Source: an uncultured Clostridia bacterium
GTDB lineage: Bacteria > Bacillota > Clostridia > Oscillospirales > CAG-382
Reading direction: 5' to 3'
NCBI GenBank assembly: GCA_947630765.1
Contig: CANRIX010000005.1
Coordinates: 1-64,000 of the forward strand
Length of the DNA: 64,000 bases
Shown here: positions 17,283-59,633 of the stretch, piece by piece
How positions within the stretch are numbered: the first letter of the stretch is position 1
Layout: the number at the start of each line of letters is the position of its first letter
Notes under the pieces: model-generated
The model's input: the letters and a program-made list of their open reading frames with translations, nothing else
Database searches by the model: none
Told to the model about the DNA's origin: nothing
Program-made: the position numbers and the translations under genes

Positions 17283-17810
17283 AAATCTCTTTCCAACATA
17301 GCTGTTTTTCACCGACATTTTACGCTTGCGGGACAACCGCGTCCCGCATTTTCGCTGACGCGAAAAACGCGTAAAAGTCGACAGTGTCGGGTCGAGGTAT
17401 GCAAAAGGTCGAACGTCTGGGTTCCCGACACCGACGTTTTACGCTTGCGGAGCAGAAGCGCTCCGCATTTTCGCTGGCGCGAAAAACGCGTAAAAGTCGA
17501 GCGCCTCGGGATATTGGAAAGAGACTGAGCGTCTCTTTCCAACACCGACGTTTTACGCTTGCGGAGCAGAAGCGCTCCGCATTTTCGCTGACGCGAAAAA
17601 CGCGTAAAAGTCGACAGCGTCGGGTCGAGGTATGCGAAAGACGGAATGTTGGCTTCCCCGACACCGACATTTTACGCTTGCGGGACAACCGCGTCCCGCA
17701 TTTTCGCTGGCGCGAAAAACGCGTAAAAGTCGACAGTGTTGGGGCGAGGTATGCGAAAGATTGAATGTTGGCTTCCCCAACACCGACGTTTTACGTTTTC
17801 GCTCCCGTTT
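17263..17810 (+). repeat. tandem array of folded palindromic units behind rpiB
   Basis: Four complete units (17313-17380, 17432-17499, 17546-17613 and 17665-17732) and a decayed fifth (about 17783-17825) alternate with simple hairpins. Each unit has a closing stem TTTTACGC/GCGTAAAA holding two hairpins: an 8-bp stem with a 6-nt loop (AACCGC or AGAAGC) and TTTTCGC-TGRC-GCGAAAA. Variable stem positions change in matched pairs (GGGAC/GTCCC against GGAGC/GCTCC). The first hairpin overlaps the rpiB stop. It is non-coding. A diverged relative lies at 51520-51600 on the other strand. Confidence 0.9.
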
Positions 17811-17869
17811 GGCAGGAGCCGAACGTGGAGAAAAACGGAAAAATTTTTGCAAAAAACGGAAATTTCCTC

Positions 17870-26810: not shown

Positions 26811-28322
26811 ATGAAAATTTTGCGTCGCGTCCTCGCGCTGCTGCCCGCCGTGTGCCTGCAGGCGCTGTGGATCTGTGTTCTGCTTGTGTGGCTTGCGCCG
26901 TGGGCGGCGGTCCTGAACTTCGCCCTTTCGGTTTTGGCGTTCCTGTTCGTGCTTTACCTGATCACGAAACGGCAGGAAAGCACCTACCGAATGCTCTGGC
27001 TGCTGGTCATCCTGACCTTTCCGCTTGCCGGGGCGCTGCTGTACCTGCTGTTCGGCAACCGGCGCACGACCCGTCCGCTGAAGAAGAAGCTGGACGCCGA
27101 GCGGAAACGGGCGGGCGAACCGCAAAACCCGGATACCGCGCCGCTCTACGACGCGCTGCGGGCGGAGGAACCGCGTCTGGCGCAGACCTTCCGCTGGGTG
27201 GAGGACGTGACGGGCTTTCCGCTGTATGAAAACACCGGGGCGGACTACTACCCGCTCGGGGACGAGATGTTCCCGCAGATGCTCGAAGCGGTCCGCGGTG
27301 CGCAGAAGTACATCTTTTTGGAGTATTTCATCGTGGACACCGGGTCGCTGTGGGACGAGCTGACCGAAGCGCTCGCGGAGAAAGCGAAGCAGGGCGTGGA
27401 CGTGCGGGTGCTGTACGACGATTTGGGCAGTATCTCGACGTTCACGAAGAGGGACGCGGAGGACCTGCGGCGGAAGGGCATCTGGTGCGAGGCGTTCAAC
27501 CCGATGGTGTTCGTCAAGGGGACGCTGAACTGCCGGAGCCATCGCAAAATGCTGGTGGTGGACGGTCGGGTCGCGTTCAGCGGCGGGATCAACCTCGCCG
27601 ACGAGTACGTCAATCGGATCGTGAAATACGGGCACTGGAAGGACATCGGGTTCCGGCTGACCGGCGACGCGGTGGGGAACTACGTGCGGATGTTCGCGGA
27701 ATTCTGGAACGCGTTCACCCATGACCGCATTTCGGACGAGCTGCATTTGCCGCCGTCCGCGCCGTCCGGGACGCCGGACGGGTATGTGTTAAGCTACTAC
27801 GATTCGCCGCTGCGGGAGGACGCGGTCAGCAACCGGCTGTACATCGAACTGCTCGGGCAGGCGAAGGAAACGGCTTGGTTCTACACGCCGTACCTCATGC
27901 CGGGGGACGCCCTGCTGGACGCATTCACCTTCGCGGCGAGACGCGGCGTGGACGTCCGCATCCTCCTGCCCGGCATTTCGGACAACAAGCTCGCCCAGCG
28001 CATGGCGCAGAGCTATTACCGGGTCCTGCTGGAGGCGGGCGTCAAGCTGTACGAGTACGAGCCGGGGTTCGTCCACGCGAAGGCGTGTCTGGTCGACGGG
28101 GTCGTCGGGACGGTCGGGACGGTCAATTTGGACTACCGCAGCCTGTTCCTGCACTTCGAGAACAATTCGCTGTTCTACCGTTCGTCGCTGCTCGACCGTC
28201 TGCGGGAGGATTACCTTTCGACGCAGGCGCTTTGCCGGGAACTGACGCTCGACGGCATCGGGCACGGGTTCTGGAAGTGGCTTGCCGACGGGATCTTGCG
28301 GGTGTTCACGCCGCTGTGTTAA
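26811..28322 (+). CDS. cls: cardiolipin synthase (phospholipase D family)
   Basis: A 503-residue enzyme that condenses two phosphatidylglycerols into cardiolipin. Two or three N-terminal membrane helices (about 5-80) precede two HKD motifs: HRKMLVVDGRVAFSGGINLADEY and HAKACLVDGVVGTVGTVNLDYRS. Length and order match ClsA-type bacterial enzymes. The ATG at 26811 follows GGGAGG just behind the promoter. A folded 3' element starts within about 5 nt of the stop. Confidence 0.95.
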   Translation: MKILRRVLALLPAVCLQALWICVLLVWLAPWAAVLNFALSVLAFLFVLYLITKRQESTYRMLWLLVILTFPLAGALLYLLFGNRRTTRPLKKKLDAERKRAGEPQNPDTAPLYDALRAEEPRLAQTFRWVEDVTGFPLYENTGADYYPLGDEMFPQMLEAVRGAQKYIFLEYFIVDTGSLWDELTEALAEKAKQGVDVRVLYDDLGSISTFTKRDAEDLRRKGIWCEAFNPMVFVKGTLNCRSHRKMLVVDGRVAFSGGINLADEYVNRIVKYGHWKDIGFRLTGDAVGNYVRMFAEFWNAFTHDRISDELHLPPSAPSGTPDGYVLSYYDSPLREDAVSNRLYIELLGQAKETAWFYTPYLMPGDALLDAFTFAARRGVDVRILLPGISDNKLAQRMAQSYYRVLLEAGVKLYEYEPGFVHAKACLVDGVVGTVGTVNLDYRSLFLHFENNSLFYRSSLLDRLREDYLSTQALCRELTLDGIGHGFWKWLADGILRVFTPLC

Positions 28323-28323
28323 A

Positions 28324-28510
28324 GGACGGGGGACAAACGCAATCGCGGCGACTCCGCTACGCGTCGCCTTGCTCCGCGTTTTTCCCCCGTTTTCCCCTTT
28401 TTCGTCGAAAACCGGCTCGGCTTGCGCCACTTCTGACGCCGCCATCGCCGGTTTTCTCTTAAGGTGTCAAATCTGCGGCACATGTCCGCAGATTTGACGT
28501 CATTTTGTGC
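28324..28510 (+). repeat. family-A structured 3' element, copy 1 (behind cls)
   Basis: Three stems are present. Stem A is GGGGGACAAACGC (28328-28340) with GCGTTTTTCCCCC (28376-28388). Stem B is GAAAACCGG (28407-28415) with CCGGTTTTC (28448-28456), enclosing a hairpin with a GCGC-rich tip. Stem C is a perfect 13-bp pair 28466-28478/28486-28498 closed by the loop CACATGT. It starts right behind the cls stop. Bases 28511-28718 between copies 1 and 2 hold short palindromes and no gene. Confidence 0.85.
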
Positions 28511-28718
28511 GGGGAAGGTTTTTGCAGAGCTTGGGTGCGCATCAGAAAACGGCGTTTGTGCAAATTGCTTTTTTGCAAACCGCACGTTCTGCAAATTGCT
28601 TACGAAACTATTCTAACTTCGATATTTTTTTGACAGATAGGGCATACCACGGGGGACGCCCTTTTTCCGTGCGTCGTCCGAGCGCATCGGGCGTTTGCCC
28701 TTCAAAACGCGAAGCGTT

Positions 28719-28922
28719 TACAATAAAATATCGCCCCGCAGGCGGACATGCGCCGCCGGAGGGGCACCTCCAGAGAAAACCGGCGATGGCGGCGTCAGAA
28801 TTGGCGCAAGCCGAGCCGTGTTTTCGATGAAAGGGGGGCGTTTGGGGGGAAAACGCAGAGCAAGGCAGCGCTGCGACAAAGTCGCTAGCGATGACGATGC
28901 GATTGCGTTTGCCACCCGAAAG
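28719..28922 (-). repeat. family-A structured 3' element, copy 2 (behind the zinc-ribbon gene)
   Basis: Read on the minus strand, it has the same order of stems as copy 1 and begins about 4 nt after the stop of the 28926 gene. Stem C here is GCCCC/GGGGC plus GGCGG/CCGCC with the loop CGCATGT. Copies 1 and 2 lie tail to tail. Confidence 0.85.
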
Positions 28923-28925
28923 ATA

Positions 28926-29975
28926 TTATTCTCCTCCGAAGATCCCCATAAGGTGGCCGCTCGAGATCAGCTGGTACGCGAACCAGATCAGGAACACCAG
29001 CAGGACCAGCAGGAGCAGCTTGGGAATGATCATGCGGCTGCGGTGCCGGCGGACGCGTTCCTGCGCGGCGAGCCGCTGCAGCGCTTCGTCGCACTGCCGG
29101 ACCTTTTCCGCTTTCTCCCGGTCATTTTCGAGGTGACGGTTCTGCGGGAAGGCGGACGTATCGTGCAGAATGCGCCCGACCGCGGGTCTTTTTTCCTGTT
29201 CGACCTCGCGGAGGTGCTGTTCGGAGAGGTTTTCGAGCTGCCATGCCTTGTCCCGCCCGCAGGATTCGCAAAGTTCGGCGGACGCGGGATTCTTCTGCCC
29301 GCAGCAGCAGAGCCACGCGTTCTCCCCCGCCTGCGGCAGGACGCGGATCGGGTGCTCCTCCTCGGCACGCTCGAAGATGTTGAGCGAGTGGTAGGACGAG
29401 CGCAGGGACAGGTCGATATCGGTGAACCGCTTCGCGGCGCGACGGCGGTCGAACGGGTCGTACAGCAGTCCGAGCGGCTCGTACCCGCCGATGGAATACG
29501 TCACGCCGACCAGCTCGACCTGCATGCGGTGGAAGTAGTTCTCCGGCAGCGGGAGGAACACCCCCTGCCCGAACTCCTCGCCCGGTTCGATCTCCGGCAT
29601 CCGGCGGGAATCCCGCTCCCGGCGGACCTGCCCGTGGATCGACCGCTCGCCGAGCGTCGCCGTTTCCCAGCTGTACCGCAGGGCGAGCTTTTCATACGGC
29701 GTCTGCATCCGCTCGTCGAAGAGCAGCAGCCGCACGTCCAGCGAAAGCAGCGGCTTTTCCGCGACGCAGCGGAACACCAGCATCACGAACAGCTCGCCCG
29801 TGTCGCGGTCGGATACGACGTACCCTTCCTTGACCTCCACCGGGCTTTTCGCGAACACGCCGCCGCTTTCCAGCGCTTCGACCACCCGCAGCGGGCGCAG
29901 CCGGTCCCGCCGGAGCCGCTTTTCCGCCCTCCGCCTGGTTTCGGTTTTCTCTTGCATGCCGTATACGCCGTGCAC
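28926..29975 (-). CDS. zinc-ribbon, tail-anchored membrane protein of unknown function
   Basis: A 349-residue protein. The N-terminal two thirds (about 20-235) is a beta-rich domain of unknown family. A zinc ribbon follows (about 250-270; WLCCCGQKNPASAELCESCG), then a charged helical stretch, and a C-terminal membrane helix (MIIPKLLLLVLLVFLIWFAY). The domain therefore faces the cytoplasm. The start is uncertain: GTG 29975 has AAGGGGGCGG upstream, while ATG 29957 has no good site. It follows the M55 peptidase gene by 17 bp. Confidence 0.72.
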   Translation of the reverse strand: MHGVYGMQEKTETRRRAEKRLRRDRLRPLRVVEALESGGVFAKSPVEVKEGYVVSDRDTGELFVMLVFRCVAEKPLLSLDVRLLLFDERMQTPYEKLALRYSWETATLGERSIHGQVRRERDSRRMPEIEPGEEFGQGVFLPLPENYFHRMQVELVGVTYSIGGYEPLGLLYDPFDRRRAAKRFTDIDLSLRSSYHSLNIFERAEEEHPIRVLPQAGENAWLCCCGQKNPASAELCESCGRDKAWQLENLSEQHLREVEQEKRPAVGRILHDTSAFPQNRHLENDREKAEKVRQCDEALQRLAAQERVRRHRSRMIIPKLLLLVLLVFLIWFAYQLISSGHLMGIFGGE

Positions 29976-29992
29976 CGTTTCCGCCCCCTTGT

Positions 29993-30817
29993 TCAAATGT
30001 AGGTGAAAATATCCTCTGCCTGCCGCAGCTGACCGACGCGGGTGTACGCCCCGTCCCAGCCGAACGGGTTCCCGTCGACGTCGTGCAGTGCGCACCCCTG
30101 CGCGTACTCGATGCGCTTGAACGACACCGCAAGCTCGAACGGCGACGGGAAGGTGAACACGGTCCCGTCCCGGTCGACCGCCCGCGACGCCGCTTCCGCG
30201 AGCGCACCGCACACCGCGCCCGGCGCTTCCGACAGGCAGCTATTCCACGCGAGGGACTGCTTTGTGACCACAAATTCCGCGTCCGGGAAGGTTTCCCGTG
30301 CCTGCGCGACGCAAATATCGTCCGACGCGACCAGCTTCACCGGCACGCCCAGTCGTCCGGCGACCGCCGCGTCGATCTGCAGCTCCCCGACCGGCCTGCC
30401 GTTGACCCGCATCCCGGCGAACGTCGCCGACGAATACACGTGGCAGAGCGTCGCGTCCTTCGCGTCGCAGGCGTGGTAGCCGAGGAAGAACAGCCCGTCG
30501 CAGGACGCGTCCAGCCCCGGCAGCCGCTTGCGGCTCCCCGCGCCGAGCGCGAACCGAAGATGTCCACCGGCGAACGCGCCTTCGAGCGCATGGTAGTCCA
30601 GATTATACCCGCTCCCGTGGCAGTCCCAGACGATCACGTCGTCCGCACCGCACCGCCGGAGCGCGCCGAGGAGGGCGCTTGTCTCGTCCGTCGCCTGCTG
30701 GCACGCGAACGCGTATTCCGGCGTCCCGGCGGCAAGTCCCTGCCCGGAACGCCCAATCGTGCAGGCGACCCCTTCCAGATCGACGCAGACGTAAAATTTC
30801 TTGCCCATCCCGCACAT
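29993..30817 (-). CDS. M55-family (DppA-like) D-aminopeptidase
   Basis: A 274-residue zinc peptidase of the DppA type, which cleaves D-Ala-containing dipeptides. Family metal-ligand blocks are visible: CVDLEGVA (Asp and Glu), VWDCHGSG (His), FFLGYHA (His) and GELQIDAA (Glu). No signal peptide, so it is cytoplasmic and may recycle cell-wall dipeptides. ATG 30808 is an alternative start. It forms a two-gene unit with the zinc-ribbon protein. Confidence 0.88.
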   Translation of the reverse strand: MCGMGKKFYVCVDLEGVACTIGRSGQGLAAGTPEYAFACQQATDETSALLGALRRCGADDVIVWDCHGSGYNLDYHALEGAFAGGHLRFALGAGSRKRLPGLDASCDGLFFLGYHACDAKDATLCHVYSSATFAGMRVNGRPVGELQIDAAVAGRLGVPVKLVASDDICVAQARETFPDAEFVVTKQSLAWNSCLSEAPGAVCGALAEAASRAVDRDGTVFTFPSPFELAVSFKRIEYAQGCALHDVDGNPFGWDGAYTRVGQLRQAEDIFTYI

Positions 30818-31734: not shown

Positions 31735-31759
31735 GTTGGGAAACATTTTTGTGCCTGAC

Positions 31760-31785
31760 TGACCCATATGAACGGGTCATTTTTT
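31760..31785 (+). terminator. second terminator-like hairpin
   Basis: TGACCC and GGGTCA flank an 8-nt loop, followed by TTTTTT. It could back up the HAD terminator. Confidence 0.7.
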
Positions 31786-31816
31786 ATGCCCCAAACCGAA
31801 AAGTTTTTGAGGATTT

Positions 31817-31878
31817 TCAAGGGATTTTTTTCAAAAAGTTCCTTGAATGGGGTGTGGGGTGAAGCCCCACTAAACCCC
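31817..31878 (-). repeat. paired hairpins overlapping the stop of the 31870 gene
   Basis: On the minus strand GGGGT...ACCCC encloses GTGGGG/CCCCAC at 31849-31878 and covers the TAG stop. It is followed by TTCAAGG/CCTTGAA (31817-31848) with an inner T5/A5 pairing. It may serve as terminator of the holA operon; the stop-codon overlap recalls rpiB and hydF. Confidence 0.6.
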
Positions 31879-36291: not shown

Positions 36292-38295
36292 TTAGGACTT
36301 CTTTCGCTTCTTGACCACGACGCCGATGACGCAGGCGGCGGCGAACAGCAGCACCGAGACGCCGCCGACGATCAGCGCGATGTCCGTGCCGGTCAGCAGG
36401 TGCGGCCCGTCGGAGCTTTCGTCCGCGGACGCGTTTGCGTCGTCGTCAGAGGGTTCGTCGGAAGGTTCTTCGGACGCCGGTTCGGACGCCTCGGACGACG
36501 CATCCGACACGTCGGAGGTTTCGCCGGGCTGTTCGGGCGCAGGCTCGGCCTCCCGCACCATCTTCGAGAAGGCGAGAGCGGTCCAATGCAGGGAATTCCC
36601 GGGCGCACCGTAGACCGAGAGCGAGACGTGCGTGACGGTGAGCTTCCCGGTCGTGCCGAGCTTGTTTTCCAGCGGGAAGTACAGCTTCTGCCCGGACGTG
36701 AAGTCATTGACCGTGCCGGTGAGCAGGGTGGAGAGCTGCATGGACTGCTCCGCACCGCCGTCGACCGTATAGTAGAGGAACCCGTTCGCGGAACCGCCGT
36801 CGCAGGTGAAAACGACGTGCAGGAAGGGCGTTTCGGCGAGGTCGACCTCCTTGTTGACCTGGATGTCGATCGACGGCCAGGAGAGCGTGTCCTCCTGCGC
36901 ACGGGAGAGGTGCAGGCTGCCGTCCGTATCGACGGAATAGTCGGCGACGCCGCCCGCGACGCGGGAGATCAGGCTTTCGTCGGTCGGAAGCAGGCTGACG
37001 ACGTCCTCGTAGACCGCTTCCTTCGGGAGCGTCGCCGGGTCGGGGTTGGTGACGCTGAATTCGTGGAAGGTGATCTTGCGTCCCGCCGCACCGACGACGT
37101 ACAGCTTCAGCCCGGAGAGCAGCACCGTGCCGTCCTCGCGGACCATGTTGTCCGGGATGATGTCGGACAGCTTGAGCTTGCAGTTGACCTTCTGGTTCGC
37201 GGAGAGGTCGCCGACTTCCTCGGTCTTGAGCGTCGGGTCCTGCTCGACGAAGTGCGGGATCAGCCCGACGAAGTTCTGGTCGTAGGCGACCGTCGGGGTG
37301 GAGCCGTTGAGGTAGAGCACCATGTTCGTGATCGCGGCCGTTTCAAAGTTGACGGTCAGGTAGCTGTTTTCGACCGGCACGGCGATGGTGTTTTGGATCT
37401 CGGGGGAGTAGTGCGCCTCCGGCCAGAGCCCGTTCGTGTTGGCGAAGGAGATCGAGCCGTCCGATTCCTCGGTGGCGACGACGGTGCCGGGCTTGAGGAT
37501 GCGCCAGCCGTCCGCGTCGAACGGGATGACGGATTTGGTCCAGTACCCTTCCTCGACGTCCGGCGGTTGGGGCAGTTCGATGCGGGGCGCGTCCGGGTCG
37601 ACGCGGTAGTGCGCCTTCAGGTATTCCTCGATCGAATCGACGTAGACGCGGTTGCCGAGGTCGGCGAGGTGCACGCCGTCCGCGATGAGGAACTCCTCCA
37701 GCTTATACTGGTCGCAGATCTTGTGGATGTCGATCAGCCCCGTGTCCGTTTCCTTCGCGACCTCGCGGACGATCTCCACATACACGTCCAGCGCGGCGTT
37801 CAGCCCGCCGGCGCTCGCGTAGTTTTCCGCGGGACCGTAGGCGTTCTCGCGCACATAGGGCGGGGTCAGCAGGATCGGGTCGGCGTCCAGCGCACGGACC
37901 TGCGAAATGAGGGTTTTGAGGTTTTCCCGGTACTTTTCCGGGGAGACGCGGGGCACGGAGCTGCCCGCGTTCGGGCGGACGTCGTCGTTCGTGCCGAAGC
38001 CGATGATGACGATGTCGGGGTCCTTCTTGGTCACGTCCCAGTCGAACCGGGCGAGCCCGTCCTCGGTCGTGTCGCCGCCGACGCCGGAATTGATGGCGTA
38101 GAGGTTCATCTCCTCTCCGAGCGTCTTGGTCCAGGTGCCCATGGCGGTCAGGCTGTCGCCGAGGGTCACAAGGCGGCACCCGTCCAGCAGCAGGGCGTCC
38201 GCCGCAGGCGCCGCCGAAACGACCCCCGCCGCGAACGGCAGGGACGCGCAGGACAGCGCCGCGCAGAGAAACAGGGAAAAGATGCGTTTTTTCAT
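36292..38295 (-). CDS. cell-surface SGNH/GDSL hydrolase with D2 domain
   Basis: A 667-residue secreted esterase. A signal peptide (1-28) precedes an SGNH domain (about 35-235) with block I LVTLGDSLTAMG, block III IIGFGTNDDV, and block V IADGVHLADLG. A middle beta domain (about 250-400) follows. D2 (about 405-575; SLLPTDES, WPSIDI, ETPFLHVVF, LSVYG, HWTALAF) is shared with the proteins at 56949 and 61002. A Ser/Glu/Asp stalk and a final membrane helix with KKRKKS end it. It probably removes acetyl groups from glycans. It lies 19 bp behind a GH26-like gene in one operon. Confidence 0.9.
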   Translation of the reverse strand: MKKRIFSLFLCAALSCASLPFAAGVVSAAPAADALLLDGCRLVTLGDSLTAMGTWTKTLGEEMNLYAINSGVGGDTTEDGLARFDWDVTKKDPDIVIIGFGTNDDVRPNAGSSVPRVSPEKYRENLKTLISQVRALDADPILLTPPYVRENAYGPAENYASAGGLNAALDVYVEIVREVAKETDTGLIDIHKICDQYKLEEFLIADGVHLADLGNRVYVDSIEEYLKAHYRVDPDAPRIELPQPPDVEEGYWTKSVIPFDADGWRILKPGTVVATEESDGSISFANTNGLWPEAHYSPEIQNTIAVPVENSYLTVNFETAAITNMVLYLNGSTPTVAYDQNFVGLIPHFVEQDPTLKTEEVGDLSANQKVNCKLKLSDIIPDNMVREDGTVLLSGLKLYVVGAAGRKITFHEFSVTNPDPATLPKEAVYEDVVSLLPTDESLISRVAGGVADYSVDTDGSLHLSRAQEDTLSWPSIDIQVNKEVDLAETPFLHVVFTCDGGSANGFLYYTVDGGAEQSMQLSTLLTGTVNDFTSGQKLYFPLENKLGTTGKLTVTHVSLSVYGAPGNSLHWTALAFSKMVREAEPAPEQPGETSDVSDASSEASEPASEEPSDEPSDDDANASADESSDGPHLLTGTDIALIVGGVSVLLFAAACVIGVVVKKRKKS

Positions 38296-38314
38296 AACGT
38301 TTGCCTTTCTTCGC

Positions 38315-40228
38315 TCAGGAATCCGACCGATTCAGGTAGTCGCGCAGCTTCTCGATCGTCGGCATACACGCCTCGTCGAGCTTGAGGTAGTTGATGATAT
38401 CCGTGTACTGCCCGTCGCCGTCGACGTCCGCGTAGTCGTTGCAGGAGAACCAGACGGCGAGCTTGATGCGGCTGCAGAATTCGTAACCGGGGTCCTGGCT
38501 ATGCTCGAAGCAGTCGATCATGCCCTCGACCCACTGGGTCTGGTAGCCGATATTCCTGCCGAGCGTGGTCGTGCGGTAGCCGTTGAGGCCGTAGTCATAG
38601 ACGGCGTTTCCGCCCGCGCCGCAGGCGAATTCCCCGAGGATCCACGGGTAGTTCTCGTAGTAGGGGAGCATCTTATTCGCCGTTTCGGTGTACATGGTCT
38701 GGAAGCTCGCCGGAGCGCCTTCGTTGTTCATCTGGTAATGGGTCAGACCGAGCATCTGCACGTAGTCCGCACCGGGCATGTAGCAGAGCGCTTCGCCCCA
38801 GTTGCAGTACGGGCAGGTCGTCGAGATCGGGTTGATGACCCAGATCAGGTTATTCACGCCCTCCTCTTCAAACAGGTCGTAGACGTGCCGCCAGGTCATC
38901 TGGAAGATATCCGGGTCGAGCAGGGTCATCATGCCGCAGTAGTCGGTCCAGTCGGTGTTCATCTCGTTGTTGACGCGGAAGATGATCGGCTTGGCGTAGT
39001 CCTTCATGAACCCGGCGAGGCTGCGGAAGTAATCGTCGTGCCTGCCGCGCAGGATGTCGAACATCGGGGTATAGACCCCGCCGGTGGCGTTATTGGTTTC
39101 GGTGAACTGGTAGGTCAGGTTGAAAACCGGCTTGCCGTCGAACCCGTTGCCGCCCGCGAAGGCGTCGGCGCGGTCAAAGGTCTCCTTCGGGTCGGCGTAG
39201 GTGCCGTACCAGCCCATGTGCAGGTAGGTCATGTAGACGTCCGGCGTCGCGTTCAGCGCCTCCTCGCCCCAGAGCCATTCGGTGTATTCGTCGCTGTTGC
39301 CCTCGTGGAACGCGCCAAAGCCGACGTCCGTGCGGTTCTGCAGGAATTCGTAGTAGGCCTTCGTCTCCTCCGACCAGTTCGGGTTTTCCTTGCATTCGTA
39401 GGACGTAAAGCCGTTCGCCGGCGTACCGACCATCGGAATCTCGCGGAAGGACGCGACGACGTCGTCCAGCGCGTCGTTCATGCGCTTTTTGGACTTCATG
39501 ACGATCAGGTAGAAGTAGTTATAGGTGTTCGTCGGGCGAATGATGGCGATCTGGTAGAACGGCATTTCGATCTTGCTTGCGAGGTTGATCTGCATACAGT
39601 AGGACTTGACCGTGTAGTCCCCGACCTCGACCTCCTGCACGGCGCGGGTGCGCATGATCTGGTTGTTCGACAGGAACTGCGTGTCGTCGATCTGCTCGAC
39701 CAGCCATTCCCGCATGTACAGGTCGTAGCCGTCCTTGCTCGTGCTGCCGTCGCCCTGCTTGCCGTAGGGGTTCTGGTTCTCATAGGTTAGGGTCAGGCAG
39801 TAGTCCTCGGTGCGGTACTGCGAGCGGAATTTGCCGAGGCTGAAGTCCGCTTCCGGCGCACCCGGGAGCGTGACGCAGTAGCCCTCTGCCGGGACGACCG
39901 CACGCGTGGACGCTTCGCCGGTGAACAGCAGACGCACGTCGTTGTCGCTCGCCGGAGCGGGATCCTCGTCGGTGGCGTTGCCGTTTTCATAGACGGTCGC
40001 CTTGAAAATGCTTTCCGGGCCGGTCAGCCCGTTCGCTTCGTCGGCGTAATCGGACGACCAGACGGCTTCCGCGCGGGGATCCGGGGTTTTCGGCTCCTCG
40101 CTGGGCGTATCGGACGGGTCGGCAGGCTCGGTGTTTTCCGACGACGTGTTGTTCCCGCCCGCACAGCCGGCGAGCAGCAGAAGCGGCGTCAGGAACAGGC
40201 AGAGCATGGTTCGTAGCAGTTTTTTCAT
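38315..40228 (-). CDS. GH26-like lipoprotein (first of a tandem pair)
   Basis: A 637-residue lipoprotein with a lipobox LLAGC (Cys22) and a Ser/Glu/Pro linker. A specific N-terminal domain (about 60-270) precedes a TIM-barrel-like catalytic region (about 300-620). The barrel shows the GH26 pattern: KPIIFRVNNEMNTDW (acid/base Glu) and YPWILGEFACG (nucleophile Glu), with aromatic subsite residues. GH26 enzymes act on beta-mannans and related glucans. It is about 75% alike by eye to the gene at 40331. The promoter is at 40272; co-transcription with the SGNH gene is likely. Confidence 0.85.
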   Translation of the reverse strand: MKKLLRTMLCLFLTPLLLLAGCAGGNNTSSENTEPADPSDTPSEEPKTPDPRAEAVWSSDYADEANGLTGPESIFKATVYENGNATDEDPAPASDNDVRLLFTGEASTRAVVPAEGYCVTLPGAPEADFSLGKFRSQYRTEDYCLTLTYENQNPYGKQGDGSTSKDGYDLYMREWLVEQIDDTQFLSNNQIMRTRAVQEVEVGDYTVKSYCMQINLASKIEMPFYQIAIIRPTNTYNYFYLIVMKSKKRMNDALDDVVASFREIPMVGTPANGFTSYECKENPNWSEETKAYYEFLQNRTDVGFGAFHEGNSDEYTEWLWGEEALNATPDVYMTYLHMGWYGTYADPKETFDRADAFAGGNGFDGKPVFNLTYQFTETNNATGGVYTPMFDILRGRHDDYFRSLAGFMKDYAKPIIFRVNNEMNTDWTDYCGMMTLLDPDIFQMTWRHVYDLFEEEGVNNLIWVINPISTTCPYCNWGEALCYMPGADYVQMLGLTHYQMNNEGAPASFQTMYTETANKMLPYYENYPWILGEFACGAGGNAVYDYGLNGYRTTTLGRNIGYQTQWVEGMIDCFEHSQDPGYEFCSRIKLAVWFSCNDYADVDGDGQYTDIINYLKLDEACMPTIEKLRDYLNRSDS

Positions 40229-40271
40229 CGCAAATCAATTCCCTTTCGTTGCAGTTTCTTTTTCATGGAAC

Positions 40272-40300
40272 AGTATACAGGAAAATCCGCAAAAAAGCAA
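40272..40300 (-). promoter_or_regulatory. promoter of the 38315 GH26-like gene
   Basis: On the minus strand TTGCTT (40295-40300) and TATACT (40272-40277) are spaced 17 bp. The box CCTGTATACT also occurs at the paralogue's promoter. Confidence 0.75.
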
Positions 40301-40330
40301 GACTCTTTTGCAAAAAAGGCAAAAAACAGG

Positions 40331-42214
40331 TCAGGAAGTCTCGTTCAGGTACTCCCGCAGCTCGCGGAGCACGCCCATCGCGTTCTCGTCGAGCATGTAG
40401 GAGGTGATGATCTCGTTGTATTTCCCGTCGCCGTCGACGTCCGCGTAGTCGTTGCTGGAGAACCAGACGGCGAGCTTGATGCGGCGGCAGAACTCGTTCT
40501 CCGGCAGTTGGTTGTTGCGGAAGCAGTCGAGCATATCCGCGACCCACTGGGTCTGCCGGTCGACGTTGCGCCCGAATTCGGTCGCCACATAGCCGTTGAC
40601 GCCGTAATCGTAGTAGGCGACGCCGCCCCCGCCGCAGGCGAATTCCCCGATCATCCACGGGTAGTCCGCGAAGTAGGGGAGCGCGTTGGTCTCCGCCAGC
40701 GTGTACCGCTCGCGGAAGGTCTTATACTCGATGTCGACGTTGTTCGCCTCGTAGTTGGTCAGCCCGAAGATCTGCACGTAGTCCGCCCCGGGCATATAGC
40801 AGACCGTCTCCCCCCAGTTGCAGTACGGGCAGGTGATGGCGATGGGATTGAACACCCAGATCAGGTTGTCCACCCCTTCCTCCTCGAACAGGTCGTACAG
40901 GTGCCGCCACGCCATCTGGAACAGGTCCGGGTCGAGCAGGGTCATCATGCCGCAGTAGTCGGTCCAGTCGGTGTTCATCTCGTTGTTGAGCCGGAAAATG
41001 ATGGGTTTCCCGTAGTCCTTCATGTACCCCGCAAGCTCGCGGAACTGGTTATCCAGCCGACCGCGCAGGATGTCGAACGTCGGGGTGTACGCGCCGGTGG
41101 CGTTGTTGGTCTCGGTGAACTGGTAGGTCAGGTTAAAGACCGGCTTGCCGTCGAACCCGTTGCCGCCCGCGTAGGTGTCGGCACGGTCGAACGTCTCCTC
41201 CGGGCTTTGCGGGTCGCCGTACCAGCCCATTGCCAAGTAGGTCATGTAGACGTCCGGCGTTGCGTCCAGCGCTTCCGGGCCCCAGAGCCATTCGGTATAT
41301 TCGTCGCTGTTGCGCTCGTGGAACGCGCCGAAGCCGACGTCCGTGCGGTTCTGCAGGTATTCATAGTAGGCCTTGGTTTCCTCCGACCAGTTGGGGTTTT
41401 CCTTGCATTCGTAGGACGAAATGCCGTCCGCCGGCGTACCGACCATCGGGATCTCGCGGAAGGACGCGACGATGTCGTCCAGTTCGTCGTTCATGCGTTT
41501 TTGGGACTTCATGACGATCAGGTAGAAGTAGGTGTAGCTCTCCGTCGGGCGGATGATGGCGATCTGGTAGAAGGGCATGTCGATATTGCTCGCGAGGTTG
41601 ATCTGCATGCAGTAGGTCTTGACCGTGTAGGGACCGACCTCGACCTCCTGCAGCGGGCGCGTCCGCATGAGTTGGTTGTCGGCGAGGTATTTGGTGCTGT
41701 CGATGTGCTCGGTCAGCCAGCCCGTGATGTACATATTGTACCCGGCTTCGTCCTTGGAATAGGGGTTCTGGTTCTCGTAGGTCAGCGTCAGGCAGTAGTC
41801 GTCGGTGCGGTACTGCGAGCGGCGGCTGCCGAGGCTGAAGTCCGCTTCCGGCGCACCCGGGAGCGTGACGCAGTAGCCCTCCGCCGGGACGACCGCACGG
41901 GTCGCGTCTGCGCCGGTGAACAGAAGGCGCACGTCGTTATCCGCCGCCGGGGCGGGATTTTTGTCGGTCGCGTTGCCGTTTTGGTAGACGGTCGCTTGGA
42001 AAATGGTCTCCGGGGCGGTCAGTCCGTGCGCTTCGTCGGCGTAGTCGGACGACCAGACGGCATCGGCGCGGGGGTCGGGGGTTTTCGGTTCCTCGCTCGC
42101 CGTCGTTTCGGCGCTCGACGTGTCGTCCGCCGGTTCGGACGCGTCGTTCGTACTTCCGCCGCAGGCGGTCAGGAGCAGAAGAAGGGTCAGCAGCAGCGCG
42201 GTGGCTTTTTTCAT
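40331..42214 (-). CDS. GH26-like lipoprotein (second of a tandem pair)
   Basis: A 627-residue lipoprotein (lipobox LLTAC) with the same layout as its neighbour: linker, specific domain (about 50-265) and GH26-like barrel with IFRLNNEMNTDW and YPWMIGEFACGGGG. The two candidate Glu residues are present in both copies, so both should be active. Differences cluster in the loop after FGLTNYEANN, which may alter specificity. The ATG at 42214 follows AAAGGGG. Confidence 0.85.
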   Translation of the reverse strand: MKKATALLLTLLLLLTACGGSTNDASEPADDTSSAETTASEEPKTPDPRADAVWSSDYADEAHGLTAPETIFQATVYQNGNATDKNPAPAADNDVRLLFTGADATRAVVPAEGYCVTLPGAPEADFSLGSRRSQYRTDDYCLTLTYENQNPYSKDEAGYNMYITGWLTEHIDSTKYLADNQLMRTRPLQEVEVGPYTVKTYCMQINLASNIDMPFYQIAIIRPTESYTYFYLIVMKSQKRMNDELDDIVASFREIPMVGTPADGISSYECKENPNWSEETKAYYEYLQNRTDVGFGAFHERNSDEYTEWLWGPEALDATPDVYMTYLAMGWYGDPQSPEETFDRADTYAGGNGFDGKPVFNLTYQFTETNNATGAYTPTFDILRGRLDNQFRELAGYMKDYGKPIIFRLNNEMNTDWTDYCGMMTLLDPDLFQMAWRHLYDLFEEEGVDNLIWVFNPIAITCPYCNWGETVCYMPGADYVQIFGLTNYEANNVDIEYKTFRERYTLAETNALPYFADYPWMIGEFACGGGGVAYYDYGVNGYVATEFGRNVDRQTQWVADMLDCFRNNQLPENEFCRRIKLAVWFSSNDYADVDGDGKYNEIITSYMLDENAMGVLRELREYLNETS

Positions 42215-42276: not shown

Positions 42277-42333
42277 GAGGTGGCAGAAAAATATTCCGCC
42301 GATTTGTAGAAAACGGCAGGGGAAAGCGAAAAT

Positions 42334-42547
42334 ACAATAAAATAATGCCCCGCAGGCGGACATGCGCCGCCGGAGGGGCTCCTTAAGAGAAAACCGGCGA
42401 AGGCGGCGTCAGAATTGGCGCAAGCCGAGCCGGGTTTTCAAACGTGCCGACAAAGTCGGCACGTTCCGAGGGAGGGAGCCTCCGAGGGGGGAACGCAGAG
42501 TTAGACGGTGCATAGCACCGGCGACACGATTGCGGTCCCCCTTCGGA
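42334..42547 (-). repeat. family-A structured 3' element, copy 3 (with an extra hairpin)
   Basis: Read on the minus strand it begins about 8 nt after the stop of the 42555 gene. Stem A pairs TCCGAAGGGGG at one end with CCCCCCTCGGA at the other, covering the outer positions with sequence unlike the other copies. An additional 11-bp hairpin (42440-42450/42454-42464) is inserted between stems A and B. Stem C again has the CGCATGT loop. Confidence 0.83.
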
Positions 42548-42554
42548 AAAGCTT

Positions 42555-43556
42555 TTATCTTGTTCTGATGCGAAGCGTTACGGCCGCGCCGACCGCGCCG
42601 AGGATCGCAAGCACCGCGAACACGAGCAGCCCCGTGTCACCCGCCTGCACTCCGCCGGACGACGTCGAGCCGGTGGAACCAGTGGAGCTGGCGGAACCAG
42701 TGGAGCCGGTCGAACCCGTGGAGCTAGTGGAACCTGTCGAGCCGGTGGAATCGGTGGACCCGGTCGAACCAGTAGACCCGGTGGAATCGGTGGACGAGGA
42801 GTCGGTCGAGCCCGTAGAGCCGGTTGAATCAGTCGACGAAGAATCCGTCGACGAGGAGTCGGTCGACGAGGAATCGGTCGACGAAGAATCCGTGGACGAA
42901 GAATCCGTCGAACCGGCGGACGAGGAATCGCTGGACGTGGAACCCGTCGACGGCTTCACGAGCGGCGTGCCGACGACCATGGCGTTCTCGTCGCTGACCA
43001 GCGCGAGCGTGTTGAGCGTGACGACGTCGCCGGTTTTCGCCGCCGTGATGTCAAGGTCCTTGAATTCGTGGACGTTGTTTTCGAACCGCTTGTCCCCCGT
43101 GACGTAGGCGGGCAGGTCCCAGACGATGGACGTGTCCGTCGAACGCTTGGTATAGGAAGCGTTTTTCTTCATGCCGGTGAAGAACAGGTCCGCGTTCCCG
43201 CCGTCCTTGTCCTTGCGGGTGTAGTGGATTCGGAAGTCGACGTCCTTGTTTTCGCTGACGAAATCGGCGGCGACGAAGGTTGGCTTGGACAGGTCGACCT
43301 GTGCGCCCGTGTAGTCCGCGAGGTGGATCGGCGTGTCCTCGGACGCGTCCTTCTTGAACGTGAGCGTGACCGAGCCGTTTTCGTTGCGTTTGACCGTCAC
43401 GGATTCGTTGTCGGTATCCTGCAGCGAAGCGAGGAAGTCGACGATCACGACCGAGGACGGCTCCCCGCTGACCGGCTTGCTGTCCGCCGCCATCGCGCAG
43501 ACCGCGCCGAGCGACAGCAGTACCGCCGCCAGCAGAACGGAAATGAACTTTTTCAT
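42555..43556 (-). CDS. tail-anchored surface protein with D3 domain
   Basis: A 333-residue secreted protein. A signal peptide (1-23) precedes D3 (about 30-190; VDFRIHYTRKDKD, SIVWDLPAYVTG, LNTLALVSD), shared with the proteins at 43726 and 56949. A stalk of Ser/Thr/Asp/Gly repeats (about 195-300) ends in VQAGDTGLLVFAVLAIL and the tail RIRTR. No catalytic residues were recognised. D3 may be a binding module. It lies next to the GH26-like genes. Confidence 0.82.
   Translation of the reverse strand: MKKFISVLLAAVLLSLGAVCAMAADSKPVSGEPSSVVIVDFLASLQDTDNESVTVKRNENGSVTLTFKKDASEDTPIHLADYTGAQVDLSKPTFVAADFVSENKDVDFRIHYTRKDKDGGNADLFFTGMKKNASYTKRSTDTSIVWDLPAYVTGDKRFENNVHEFKDLDITAAKTGDVVTLNTLALVSDENAMVVGTPLVKPSTGSTSSDSSSAGSTDSSSTDSSSTDSSSTDSSSTDSSSTDSTGSTGSTDSSSTDSTGSTGSTGSTDSTGSTGSTSSTGSTGSTGSASSTGSTGSTSSGGVQAGDTGLLVFAVLAILGAVGAAVTLRIRTR
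42655..42950 (-). repeat. coding tandem repeats in the D3-protein stalk
   Basis: Units of 15 bp coding D-S-S-S-T and 9-bp units coding S-T-G or T-G-S alternate. The repeats are near-identical at the DNA level, so unit number may vary between strains. Confidence 0.8.
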
Positions 43557-49954: not shown

Positions 49955-51145
49955 ATGAGTTTGCAGGAAACGGTTTCGGCGGAACGGGTGCATATCGGGT
50001 TTTTCGGGAAGCGCAACGCCGGGAAGTCCAGCCTGGTCAACGCCGTGACGGGGCAGGCGCTCTCGGTGGTCTCGCCGGTGCGCGGGACGACGACCGACCC
50101 GGTCAAGAAGGCGATGGAGCTGCTGCCGCTCGGGCCGGTGCTGATCATCGACACGCCCGGGCTGGACGACGAGGGGGAGCTGGGCGAGCTGCGGGTCCGC
50201 AAGGCGAAGCAGATGCTGGCGCAGACCGACCTCGCCGTGCTCGCCGTGGACGCGTGCGCGGGGCTTTCGCCGGAGGACGCGGAGCTGCTTTCCCTCTTTC
50301 GGGAGCGGGGGTTGCCGTATGTGGTCGCCTATAACAAGGCGGACCTGCTCGCCGAACGACCGCCGCTGCCGCCGGACGGGCTGTACGTCAGCGCGGTGAC
50401 GGGAGAGGGCGTGCATGAACTGAAGGAGAAGCTCGGCAGCTTCGCCAAAACGCTGGAAAACCCGAGGAAGCTGGTCGCCGACCTGCTTGCTCCGGGGGAC
50501 GTGACGGTGCTGGTCATTCCCATCGACGCCGCCGCGCCGAAGGGACGGCTGATTTTGCCGCAGCAGCAGGTCATGCGCGAACTGCTGGACGCGCACCTGC
50601 CGTTCGCCGCCTGCCAGGACACGGAGCTGCGGGAGACGCTTTGTGCGCTTTCGCGCCCGCCGAAGCTGGTCGTGACGGATTCGCAGGCGTTCGGGAAGGT
50701 CGCGTCCGTCCTGCCGCCGGAGCAGCTTTTGACGTCGTTTTCCATCCTGTTCGCCCGCTATAAGGGCGAGCTCGGACAGCTCGTCCGGGGTGCCGAGGCG
50801 CTCGCGGACCTGCGCGACGGCGACCGGGTGCTGATCGCCGAGGGGTGTACGCACCACCGCCAGTGCGGGGACATCGGGACGGTCAAACTGCCCGCGTGGC
50901 TGGAAGGGTATACCGGCGCAAAACCGGTCTATACGTTCACGTCCGGCGGGGAGTTCCCGGAGGACCTTTCGCCGTTTTCGCTGGTGATTCATTGCGGGGC
51001 GTGTATGCTCAACGCCGCCGAGGTCGCGAGCCGGTTGCGCCGTGCGGCGGACGCCGGCGTGCCGGTCGTCAATTACGGCGTCGCCATCGCGAAGATGCAC
51101 GGGATTCTGGAGCGGAGCTTGAAGGTATTTGGTTTCGGGGGGTAA
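49955..51145 (+). CDS. hydF: [FeFe]-hydrogenase maturation GTPase HydF
   Basis: A 396-residue scaffold GTPase. The G domain has GKRNAGKSSLVNAV, DTPGLDDEGEL and NKAD; the C-terminal part has the FeS ligand motif with CTHHRQCGD and the final HCGAC. The last codons (KVFGFGG, stop) lie inside stem A of a family-A 3' element (TTCGGGGGG at 51134-51142), so the extreme C-terminus seems shaped by that element. With hydE and hydG it completes the maturation set; no hydrogenase structural gene lies in the window. Confidence 0.94.
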   Translation: MSLQETVSAERVHIGFFGKRNAGKSSLVNAVTGQALSVVSPVRGTTTDPVKKAMELLPLGPVLIIDTPGLDDEGELGELRVRKAKQMLAQTDLAVLAVDACAGLSPEDAELLSLFRERGLPYVVAYNKADLLAERPPLPPDGLYVSAVTGEGVHELKEKLGSFAKTLENPRKLVADLLAPGDVTVLVIPIDAAAPKGRLILPQQQVMRELLDAHLPFAACQDTELRETLCALSRPPKLVVTDSQAFGKVASVLPPEQLLTSFSILFARYKGELGQLVRGAEALADLRDGDRVLIAEGCTHHRQCGDIGTVKLPAWLEGYTGAKPVYTFTSGGEFPEDLSPFSLVIHCGACMLNAAEVASRLRRAADAGVPVVNYGVAIAKMHGILERSLKVFGFGG

Positions 51146-51345
51146 ACACAATCGCGGCGGCGTCGCTAGCGACCTTGTCGCAGCTCCTCCTTGCTCTGTT
51201 TTTTCCCCCCGAATGCTCCCCTTTTATCGAAAAATGACTCGGCTTGCGCCAATACTGACGCCGCCATCGCCATTTTTCTCTTGATGTGTTCCTCCGGCGG
51301 TACATGCCCGCCTACGGAACGATATTTGATTGTATTTTTTGCGTC
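51134..51345 (+). repeat. family-A structured 3' element, copy 4 (overlapping the hydF stop)
   Basis: Stem A pairs TTCGGGGGG (51134-51142) with CCCCCCGAA (51205-51213), continuing through AAACA/TGTTT. Stem B is GAAAAATG (51229-51236) with CATTTTTC (51271-51278), against GAAAACCGG/CCGGTTTTC in copy 1. Stem C is GTTCC (51288-51292) with GGAAC (51316-51320) around GGCGG/CCGCC and loop TACATGC. The tail is ATATTTGATTGTATTTTTT. Confidence 0.86.
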
Positions 51346-56948: not shown

Positions 56949-59633
56949 TTAGCGTCTCACTTTCACTGCGACGATGGCGCCGACAGTGGAGAGGACACCG
57001 AGAATAGCGAACACCAGCATGCTGCTGTCGCCGGTCTGGGGAGACGTGGACGTGCTCGCCGCAGAGGACGTGCCTGTCCCGGAAGCCGTAGACTGGCTGG
57101 AGGAGGTAGTGCTGGAGGTTTCGCTGGACGCGTCGCTGGAGGTGTCACTGGACGTGTCACTGGAGGTTTCGCTGGACGTGTCACTGGACGTGTCACTGGA
57201 GGTGTCGCTGGACGTATCGCTGGACGTATCGCTGGACGTGTCGCTGGACGTGTCACTGGACGTGTCACTGGATGTGTCGCTGGACGTGTCACTGGAGGTG
57301 TCGCTGGACGTATCGCTGGACGTGTCGCTGGACGTGTCGCTGGAGGTATCGCTGGACGTGTCGCTGGACGTGTCGCTGGACGTGTCGCTGGACGTGTCAC
57401 CGCTGGGCTCAACATAATCGCCACGGGTGATGAGCGGGGTGCCGACTGTCATCGCATCTTTCACGTTGACAAACGCATACGTGTTGAACGTGATGGTGTC
57501 GCCAGCGTTCGCATTGGTGAACGTGAGGTCGCCGAGGGCACTGCCGCCCGCGACTGCACGGTTACTACCGACATACTTGCTGAAGTCCCAAACGAACCAA
57601 TCTTCGCCCTTCTCTTCGGCGGCACCTTTCCCGCTGTCATAATACGCTTCTGCATAGGGGTTCTTGTCAGACCGCGCATAGTGCAGGAAGAAGTTGATAT
57701 TCGCGTCGCTTCTCACAACGTCCGCAACGAAATACAGGTTCAGTCTGGTCAGGTCGAGCTTTGCGCCGATAGTATCCACGATCGTAAGACGGTTGTCATT
57801 CGTCACATTCCTATGGAACGTGATGGTGACAGAGCTGTCCTTGTTGACCTTGATGGTGTATTCGTCGGTTTCGGTGTTCGTCAGCGCGGACAGAACATCG
57901 AATTCGATCACATCAAGCGTATCAAGTTTCATCTCGTCTGCGTTGAACGTGACGTATGGAGCGGTATTGGTTTCACCGGAATAGTTGGTGATATAGCCGT
58001 TATCGCCCATTTCGGCGTTTTCGCTCGCGATATGCAGCGCCTGATACGTGGCCGTGCGATCCTCGGTCGGCTCGAGATTGGTGCTGTATGTGACATACAT
58101 ACGGTAATCGCCGGTCACGAGGAACATCGCTTTCTTGAAGGAAACTTCCGCGGTCAGCTTGTTATCCGCATAGTTGATCGCATAGTTATCGCTGGTGAAG
58201 TCGGACAGTTTTGCAGAAACTTCCGCGTCGCTGTAAATCAGACGGACGACCGTCCAACCCTTTTCCTCGCCAAGGTACTGAATGTCGATCGCGTAGCGCA
58301 GATTGTCCTTGACGCGGATCCAGACGCGGAGCATGGAAGTCGCGGTTTGGTTGTACCCAACGATCTGCGTACCGGCGTCATTCGGCGTCATATCGGGGGC
58401 ATAGCCCTCATTGATGGACGGAGCCGGGATGTTGTCGATCTCGACACCGACATAGACGTTTTCGTCATCCGTACGGGTCTCAAACTTCGCGGTAACGTTT
58501 TTGGGCTCGGGAGCATTGTTTTGCTGCCAGTATGTTTTGGAAACCTGCGGTGTCTTGGTCCAGCCGGTATCGTCCAGCTTGCCGTCGATCGCGATCGCTT
58601 CCTTGACGGTGGGTTCCTTCTCAAACGAGAGGGCGTTCCAAGTGACCTTCCACACGTAGATGCTCAGGGTGACCTTCGTGATCGTGATCTTGCCGGTGGT
58701 TCCGGCATATCTGGCAAAATCATAGTAGGTATCCGATGTATTTCTGAAATCGTTCGCTGTGCCCGTCGCAACATTAGAGAGCTGCGCGGTCTTTTCTTCG
58801 GTGCCACCCTCTTCGGTGTAGTAAATCATGCCGTTGACGCCCACTTCGCCCGTCGTTTCCGGGACGGTGAAATCCAGATGCAGGTAGGGCGTTTCGGAAA
58901 GGTCAATGACGATGCCCTGGGCATTATCCAAGCTGATGGACGGCCATGCAAGGTCACTATCTGCCGCTCTGGCCATCGTCAACTTGCCGTTGTCGATGGA
59001 GAAATCGACTTTGGAGGTTGCTCCCGAGTTGGGAACTTGCGACACTTGATCCTCGCTCGTCGGGAGCAGGGAAACGACATCCGCGTTTTCCGGCTCGTCT
59101 CCGCCCTGCGCGGGAGCGGGACCGCGATACAGCGTCGCGCCGGACGCGTCGTCGTTGACAACGATCTGCCAATCCGTCGTGACATCACGGACGCCATTGT
59201 ACAGGGCGCCTTCGAGGGCTTCGAGCTCCCCGTAGTATGCTTTGAGCTCGGGATTTGCGTTCCCGTCCCCGGTGTGGAACGCGATGGCGAAACCGCCCGC
59301 CGGAACGTCGACAGAACGGGTCCACGGGTTGGTCTCGGGGTCGGTCGGATGCGTAGCATGGGTGACGAGCTGTGCTGCGATGCGAACGATCGTGCCGTCC
59401 GCGTCGCAAACGAGAATGTACGCCCAGCGGAAGTTCCAATCATCCGACTGAAGAGTACGTACGGAGTCCGCGTTTCCAGGGTAGTAGTTGACCGATGCAT
59501 TGCCAATCACTGCATCCGTCCCTGTAAACGTGACAGTTAGTGGTTCTGCTTCCGCCGTTTGCGCAGCGAATACGCAGACGACAGAAATCACGGACAGCAC
59601 CACTGCAAGAATTAGTGCGACTGTTTTTTTCAT
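56949..59633 (-). CDS. large modular tail-anchored surface protein (D1-D2-CBM9-like-D3)
   Basis: An 894-residue secreted protein that contains all three shared modules. Signal peptide (1-24); D1 (about 30-165; DWNFRWAYILV, VPAGGFAIAFH, ALYN); D2 (about 180-345; SLLPTSED, WPSISLD, ETPYLHLDF, LSIYVW, WNALSF); a CBM9-like domain (about 350-590; AIDGKLDDTGWTKTP, YVGVEI); D3 (about 600-745; INFFLHYARSDK, VWDFSKYVG). An Asp/Thr/Ser stalk and the tail SPQTGDSSMLVFAILGVL...VKVRR end it. It probably binds glycans at the surface. No catalytic site seen. Confidence 0.85.
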   Translation of the reverse strand: MKKTVALILAVVLSVISVVCVFAAQTAEAEPLTVTFTGTDAVIGNASVNYYPGNADSVRTLQSDDWNFRWAYILVCDADGTIVRIAAQLVTHATHPTDPETNPWTRSVDVPAGGFAIAFHTGDGNANPELKAYYGELEALEGALYNGVRDVTTDWQIVVNDDASGATLYRGPAPAQGGDEPENADVVSLLPTSEDQVSQVPNSGATSKVDFSIDNGKLTMARAADSDLAWPSISLDNAQGIVIDLSETPYLHLDFTVPETTGEVGVNGMIYYTEEGGTEEKTAQLSNVATGTANDFRNTSDTYYDFARYAGTTGKITITKVTLSIYVWKVTWNALSFEKEPTVKEAIAIDGKLDDTGWTKTPQVSKTYWQQNNAPEPKNVTAKFETRTDDENVYVGVEIDNIPAPSINEGYAPDMTPNDAGTQIVGYNQTATSMLRVWIRVKDNLRYAIDIQYLGEEKGWTVVRLIYSDAEVSAKLSDFTSDNYAINYADNKLTAEVSFKKAMFLVTGDYRMYVTYSTNLEPTEDRTATYQALHIASENAEMGDNGYITNYSGETNTAPYVTFNADEMKLDTLDVIEFDVLSALTNTETDEYTIKVNKDSSVTITFHRNVTNDNRLTIVDTIGAKLDLTRLNLYFVADVVRSDANINFFLHYARSDKNPYAEAYYDSGKGAAEEKGEDWFVWDFSKYVGSNRAVAGGSALGDLTFTNANAGDTITFNTYAFVNVKDAMTVGTPLITRGDYVEPSGDTSSDTSSDTSSDTSSDTSSDTSSDTSSDTSSDTSSDTSSDTSSDTSSDTSSDTSSDTSSDTSSDTSSDTSSDTSSETSSDTSSDTSSDASSETSSTTSSSQSTASGTGTSSAASTSTSPQTGDSSMLVFAILGVLSTVGAIVAVKVRR
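57114..57399 (-). repeat. 12-bp coding tandem repeat (about two dozen copies)
   Basis: The unit encodes D-T-S-S, with a few E or A exchanges. Third-position differences (GTC/GTA, TCG/TCA) mark individual copies, so slippage variation is likely. Its complementary strand also stays open, which gives a false repeat protein. Confidence 0.92.

Follow-up and report, generated by a model that had tools for sequence, protein, structure and literature searches.

Two questions are raised by a repeat that lies directly behind stop codons: does it belong to the mRNA of the gene that it follows, and which of its strands is the folded one? Such a repeat, with covarying stems, had been described in four copies in an initial annotation of the window, the whole 64,000-nt stretch of DNA from an uncultured Clostridia bacterium that was analysed here.

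Anatomy of the element and its copies in the window

All four repeat copies were confirmed, and their bounds are given in gene-sense orientation in Table 1. As annotated initially, they share one orientation relative to the preceding gene and lie within about 10 nt of its stop codon or overlap it. The element is 180-260 nt long and contains at least three hairpins. Read in the sense of the gene, it runs from stem A through stem B, the linker AAGGTG and stem C (apex GGCRCATGTCC) to a T-rich tail. Stem A, with the arms TCGGGGGGCAAACGCA ... TGCGTTTTCCCCCCGA, forms a long imperfect hairpin whose apical loop comes in several exchangeable versions. In stem B, GAAAACCGG pairs with CCGGTTTTC on either side of a nearly invariant core, and the paired change to GAAAAATGA/CCATTTTTC that had been pointed out was found as well. 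Stem C is preceded by the linker TTAAGGTG and has at least three unrelated arm versions around a constant apex, CGG..CATG.CCG; the reported variants GCCCC/GGGGC, GTTCC/GGAAC and a distinct 13-bp arm in copy 1 are all present. The tail after stem C is GATATTTTATTGTATTTTT, with a different tail in the copies that have the 13-bp arm.

Some copies carry extra hairpins at fixed sites within stem A, between stems A and B, or within stem C. Paired changes were seen in the optional hairpins between stems A and B and in stem C, and the pair table of the optional stem-A hairpin (E1) was left out because its register was off by one. Some copies, both here and in distant families, have another hairpin, GCGTGTCGA..TCGACACGC, ahead of stem A. 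In genome G021 a full element is followed by two stem-C units that lack stems A and B (L248:2450-3000, minus strand), which suggests that stem C can be a separate module.

Table 1. Element copies in the window and their parts (window positions; copy bounds in gene-sense orientation).
Feature	Position	Strand	Remarks
Copy 1	28326-28508	+ (gene-sense); folded strand -	3 nt past the stop of the PLD-domain gene 26811-28322
Copy 1, stem A	28326..28390	+	Long imperfect hairpin with variable apical loop; from sequence and fold
Copy 1, stem B	28407..28456	+	GAAAACCGG/CCGGTTTTC flanking the conserved core CTCGGCTTGCGCCANTNCTGACGCCGCCNTCG
Copy 1, linker from stem B to C	28459..28466	+	Conserved TTAAGGTG
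Copy 1, stem C	28466..28498	+	Alternative 13-bp arm, apex CGGCACATGTCCG; followed by the alternative tail without ATTGTA
Copy 2	28919-28719	- (gene-sense); folded strand +	6 nt past the stop of gene 28926-29996(-)
Copy 2, hexamer TACAAT	28719..28724	+ (folded strand)	About 9 nt ahead of stem C
Copy 3	42546-42329	- (gene-sense)	8 nt past the stop of gene 42555-43556(-)
Copy 3, optional hairpin between stems A and B	42441..42465	-	AACGTGCCGAC..GTCGGCACGTT; hairpin in only some copies; arms covary
Copy 3, hexamer TACAAT	42333..42338	+ (folded strand)	
Copy 4	51135-51338	+ (gene-sense); folded strand -	Contains the stop codon (51143-51145) of the HydF gene (49955-51145)
Copy 4, hexamer TACAAT	51329..51334	- (folded strand)	ATTGTA on +

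Other repeats were noticed in the window. A second dispersed palindrome family, CCCCAAACCGAAAAGTTTTTGAGG..CCTTGAATGGGG, is found at about 31750-31860 and at loci L111, L070 and L108, and in a sister species it lies inside or adjoining the present element. Three related repeats of about 190 nt, 71-86% alike, share one intergenic gap at 17310-17852, and tandem paralogous genes, with one weak match to glycosyl hydrolase 26, occupy 36292-42214. Long coding repeats of 12 nt and of 9/15 nt, at 57028-57471 and 42646-42965, encode low-complexity stretches.

Covariation and distribution

The structure was assessed in three alignments. Among 39 clade copies, two-sided changes were found at 14 pairs (128 cells against 49.9 after shuffling). 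In 23 stem-C units from several genera, aligned with MAFFT, 10 of 13 pairs showed such changes, with a score of 0.692 against 0.174. The largest set, 100 distinct stem-C units from 32 genomes fitted to the covariance model, had double changes at 12 of 13 pairs and a covariation score of 0.655, compared with 0.171 when shuffled. In each alignment, shifting the pairing partner by one column removed most of the signal. These data support genuine stems and a structure conserved under selection for base pairing. Of the functional RNA that the paired changes had suggested to the first annotator, the conserved structure is supported, with covariation far above chance, but not the gene's own mRNA as the folded molecule.

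The four copies are all real, but the set to which they belong is far larger. A DNA search of the window's own genome gave 47 matches, mostly further copies, and profile searches of fetched genome regions gave 45 near-complete copies. The covariance-model search proposed in the initial annotation was run with a model built from the 39 copies; it detected about 73 copies in the 2.1-Mb genome, as well as 45 in one sister species and 35 in another, both represented by rabbit-gut Clostridia MAGs. Exact core and DNA similarity searches had indicated a restriction to three species, and this was overturned by the covariance models. The full model had matches in 12 of 24 genomes of the genus. A model of stem C, which recognises diverged homologues of the last hairpin, had matches in 23 of the 63 family genomes and in 55 of the 394 genomes from the order, in many cases at least 13 per carrier genome. 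These homologues span 26 of 168 genera and ten families of a single order of gut Clostridia, and their spread is patchy. Their layout is a stop codon, stem A, often GGGGACCCC, stem B with CGCTCGCGCC, AAGGTG or GAGAAGTG, stem C and a T-rich tail. All genomes were incomplete MAGs.

No Rfam covariance model matched; the best E-values, 1.2 for the window element and 0.16 for the homologue loci, were far under the family cut-offs. The plasmid sequences searched gave no element match, and matches among phage records were confined to three short unannotated gut contigs, with one further contig in IMG/VR. No description of the element family was found in the literature searched, where the motifs of one survey (PMC8040213) were compared by description only. 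From its sequences, the family is real and order-wide, and apparently so far undescribed.

At orthologous sites in the sister species the element is mostly present as well, but loops, arms or optional hairpins differ, which suggests that pieces are exchanged or replaced as whole hairpins. Local tandem copies also exist; since two of the three tandem arrays duplicate the gene end too, they give no element ends.

Folded strand, stop codon and tail

Selection on the sense RNA would allow single stem changes that leave G·U pairs, while selection on the complement would be seen as A·C on the sense strand. Across the order, the 100 distinct stem-C units had A·C and G·T at a ratio of 39:1, with 32 of the 39 A·C cells on a single pair position; counted once per genome and pair position, the ratio was 23:1. 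Stem A of the clade gave 64:22, and in stem B the two were even once the outermost, misregistered pair was set aside. The inner helix of the stem-B core contains an invariant C·A, which is G·U on the complement. By MFE, the complement was the more stable strand in all 90 clade copies, by a median of 15 kcal/mol, and in 83 of 100 diverged copies (p about 2e-12), and control windows from the same loci had no strand bias in folding energy (p = 0.67). Stem C alone showed no clear energy bias between the strands. DNA energy parameters gave a bias in the same direction as RNA parameters, so that the strand is well supported and the choice between RNA and single-stranded DNA is not. As judged from these comparisons, it is well supported that the folded strand is the complement of the adjoining gene. 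Mismatch asymmetry, folding energy and the stem-B C·A hence speak against the suggested role in 3'-end processing, termination or stability of the gene's mRNA. The initial annotation saw the structure and the stop-codon rule correctly but in all likelihood took the wrong strand for the folded one.

Positions relative to genes were determined with a home-made gene caller whose codon model was anchored on Pfam-confirmed genes. Of the 90 distinct copies in the three species of the clade, 70 are preceded by a gene in the same orientation. Where both neighbours are known, the stem-A end lies at most 9 nt from the stop codon in 49 of 67 copies, compared with 5.1 expected if insertion into these gaps were uniform. 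Between convergent genes (36 pairs), the median distance is 7 nt from the stem-A end to its stop and 142 nt from the tail to the other one, and the anchoring therefore belongs to one end. In this clade, the stem-A end is anchored to the stop codon. The copies had been said to lie always directly behind a stop, which holds for most of them but not for the 20 of 90 without an upstream gene in the same orientation. Copies in upstream regions, named beforehand as evidence against a 3' element, do occur, but only as a minority; one (L038:2997) lies beside a gene of opposite direction, next to its ribosome-binding site and start codon. The stop codons ahead of copies are 36 TAA, 13 TGA and 8 TAG, compared with 25, 25 and 9 among the genes of the window. 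In the genus and neighbouring genera, many copies start 0-3 nt past a stop as judged by eye (TAATCGCTTCGCTCTCG, TAGCCCCAAAAATC, TAACCCCC). Stop anchoring is claimed firmly for the window's clade only, as the ORF test mixes sense and antisense genes in f14-type genomes.

The tail contains a promoter-like motif on the folded strand. A TANNNT hexamer (TACAAT, TATAAT, TAAAAT, TAAGAT and others) is located on the complement 6-10 nt ahead of stem C in 84 of 100 units, a count that is inflated because the search model R2 contains the tail and partly selects for the hexamer. With genera g2 and g9 left aside, conservation of its two A positions (sense strand, T-rich tail) reaches 100% and 96%. In copy 2, TACAAT was paired by an independent promoter scan with a weak -35 box, TTGCCC at 28695 (9 of 12 consensus bases, 0.3 sites expected). 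No consistent -35 box was seen among the element copies, nor an intrinsic terminator after stem A' on the complementary strand.

Alternative readings and known classes of repeats

The reading that we prefer, to which we give an even chance, is that of a family of structured, modular non-coding elements dispersed through the genome, the working single strand of which would be the complement of the adjoining gene. As far as the sequences can tell, the copies look less like a piece of the gene's mRNA than like a spreading family of non-coding RNAs or of hairpins in single-stranded DNA. RNA polymerase would use the -10-like TANNNT hexamer in the tail, and the RNA would start at the foot of stem C and run through C', B' and A' toward the convergent gene, with its 3' region ending at or overlapping the stop codon of that gene. 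Copies would multiply by some route, together with gene conversion and tandem duplication, and would settle behind stops either because they do least harm there or by directed insertion. The neighbour would be affected, if at all, at its 3' end, through antisense pairing or collision of convergent polymerases. The bolder version, which we regard as rather unlikely, is an order-wide mobile or proliferating RNA gene with its own promoter, an RNA 3' end placed precisely behind the convergent stop and hairpins swapped among tens of copies. By analogy, such a gene would be a bacterial counterpart of a SINE-like RNA repeat.

Somewhat more credible, but still doubtful, is a mobile DNA palindrome without an RNA function of its own, the complement of which would fold as single-stranded DNA, like REP or attC, and be moved by some recombinase or transposase. 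This explanation is in line with the many copies, some of them in tandem, their patchy spread and the shuffling of modules, and also with the strand bias under DNA parameters and the stop-abutting sites, which are typical of REPs. In some genomes contig ends lie only a few bases from a copy (G022, contigs C28, C105, C6, C34 and C108; G332, contigs C8 and C221), suggesting near-identical recent copies that break the assembly. On the other hand, no candidate enzyme emerged from the genus genomes, which are incomplete MAGs. A Y1 transposase (Y1_Tnp) was detected in only 5 of 24 and in none of the element-rich G013, G012, G002, G006, G022 and G001; reverse transcriptase was found in 6 and TnpB in 1, and both are missing from many element-rich genomes. 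RAYT, reverse transcriptase and TnpB are thus not supported as mobilisers. At five orthologous sites the element is missing in one species, with an apparent stem-A piece kept at some, but the intergenic DNA is too rearranged to define ends and no clean junction was found. Separately, G000 has only two IS200-type Y1 transposase fragments, with ends that differ from the element; both are at contig ends (L114, start of G000:C24; L115, end of G000:C15). An IS200-type fragment hairpin, ACCACCGGT..ACCGGTGG, resembles a hairpin directly behind the element copy L049:3150.

The known kinds nearest to the element are REP by behaviour and BOX by modular build, and on the features compared it can be assigned to neither. 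REPs are single hairpins of 20-40 nt with an unpaired GTAG or CGTC tag, and the GTAG class is tied to RAYT transposases. By contrast, the present element has 180-260 nt, at least three hairpins and a conserved CATG apex; AAGGTG or GAGAAGTG precedes stem C in place of a tag, and most element-rich genomes of the genus, as incomplete MAGs, show no Y1 (TnpA-REP) transposase that the repeat could flank. It resembles REPs and BIMEs as a high-copy extragenic palindrome with patchy spread and a single-strand hairpin logic, located mostly downstream of genes, in many cases within about 15 nt of the stop or supplying it. REPs, too, typically abut stop codons downstream of genes, often within 15 nt (PMC12306157, PMC3733652), and the clade copies show the same preference.

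BOX of Streptococcus pneumoniae consists of dispersed composite hairpin modules, the ends of which are reported as IS-like (PMC3049150). Compared by modular plan only, the two share dispersed hairpin modules with optional or repeated parts and a predicted RNA fold. No IS-like ends were seen in the present element, and its stop-codon anchoring and complementary-strand bias are not described for BOX in the literature consulted. A simple MITE, which the initial annotation had named as the finding that would count against it, was not what we found: the ends TTTCGGGGG... / ...ATTGTATTTTT were unrelated by inspection in about 90 copies, without terminal inverted repeats. No clean target duplication was seen in the empty sites compared, where the intergenic DNA is too rearranged to define junctions. 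The integron attC boxes RYYYAAC/GTTRRRY were likewise absent, by inspection, from the conserved columns, and the element has three hairpins, not one. Covariation for one structure, as expected of a structured RNA gene, was observed. A survey of the human microbiome lists, as described there, 3161 candidate structured-RNA motifs, some palindromic and REP-like (PMC8040213), and these resemble the element as structured candidates from metagenomic gut bacteria, by description and not motif by motif.

The reading of the initial annotation, with the element in the 3' UTR of the upstream mRNA, where it would for instance block exonucleases or stall terminating ribosomes, we consider unlikely. The tight spacing of 0-9 nt from the stop is as expected, and a precedent exists in E. 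coli, where REPs within 15 nt of the stop stall terminating ribosomes, as summarised in PMC12306157. The sense strand, moreover, folds strongly itself (mean -83 kcal/mol in the clade). Against this stand the preference of both mismatches and folding energies for the other strand, the copies without a sense gene upstream, and the lack of a terminator-type U-tract directly after stem C. In many species stem C has a U-rich left arm and an A-rich right arm; no T-run directly follows it, and a terminator signature was seen on neither strand. Intrinsic terminators that became alike by convergence are very improbable: a GC-rich hairpin followed in the sense direction by a T-rich tail, and a few terminator-like matches, would fit, but the apex, linkers and three-stem layout common across families point to common descent, the stem is set off from the tail by two or three bases (GGA, GAT), the tail (GGATTTT/GATATTTT) has invariant A positions, and copies are found beside separate host terminators.

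Dispersed structured repeats are already known as a kind. The present family, which we prefer to read as modular non-coding elements working from the complementary strand, is deep enough (26 genera, ten families) for real covariation to show, together with a preferred strand and a sharp stop-codon tie, and this depth makes the question of RNA or DNA, and of which strand, directly testable for dispersed repeats. Transcription of the elements against the adjoining genes, if it occurs, would mean that in common gut bacteria each genome has dozens of genes faced at the 3' end by a convergent RNA that has gone unrecognised.
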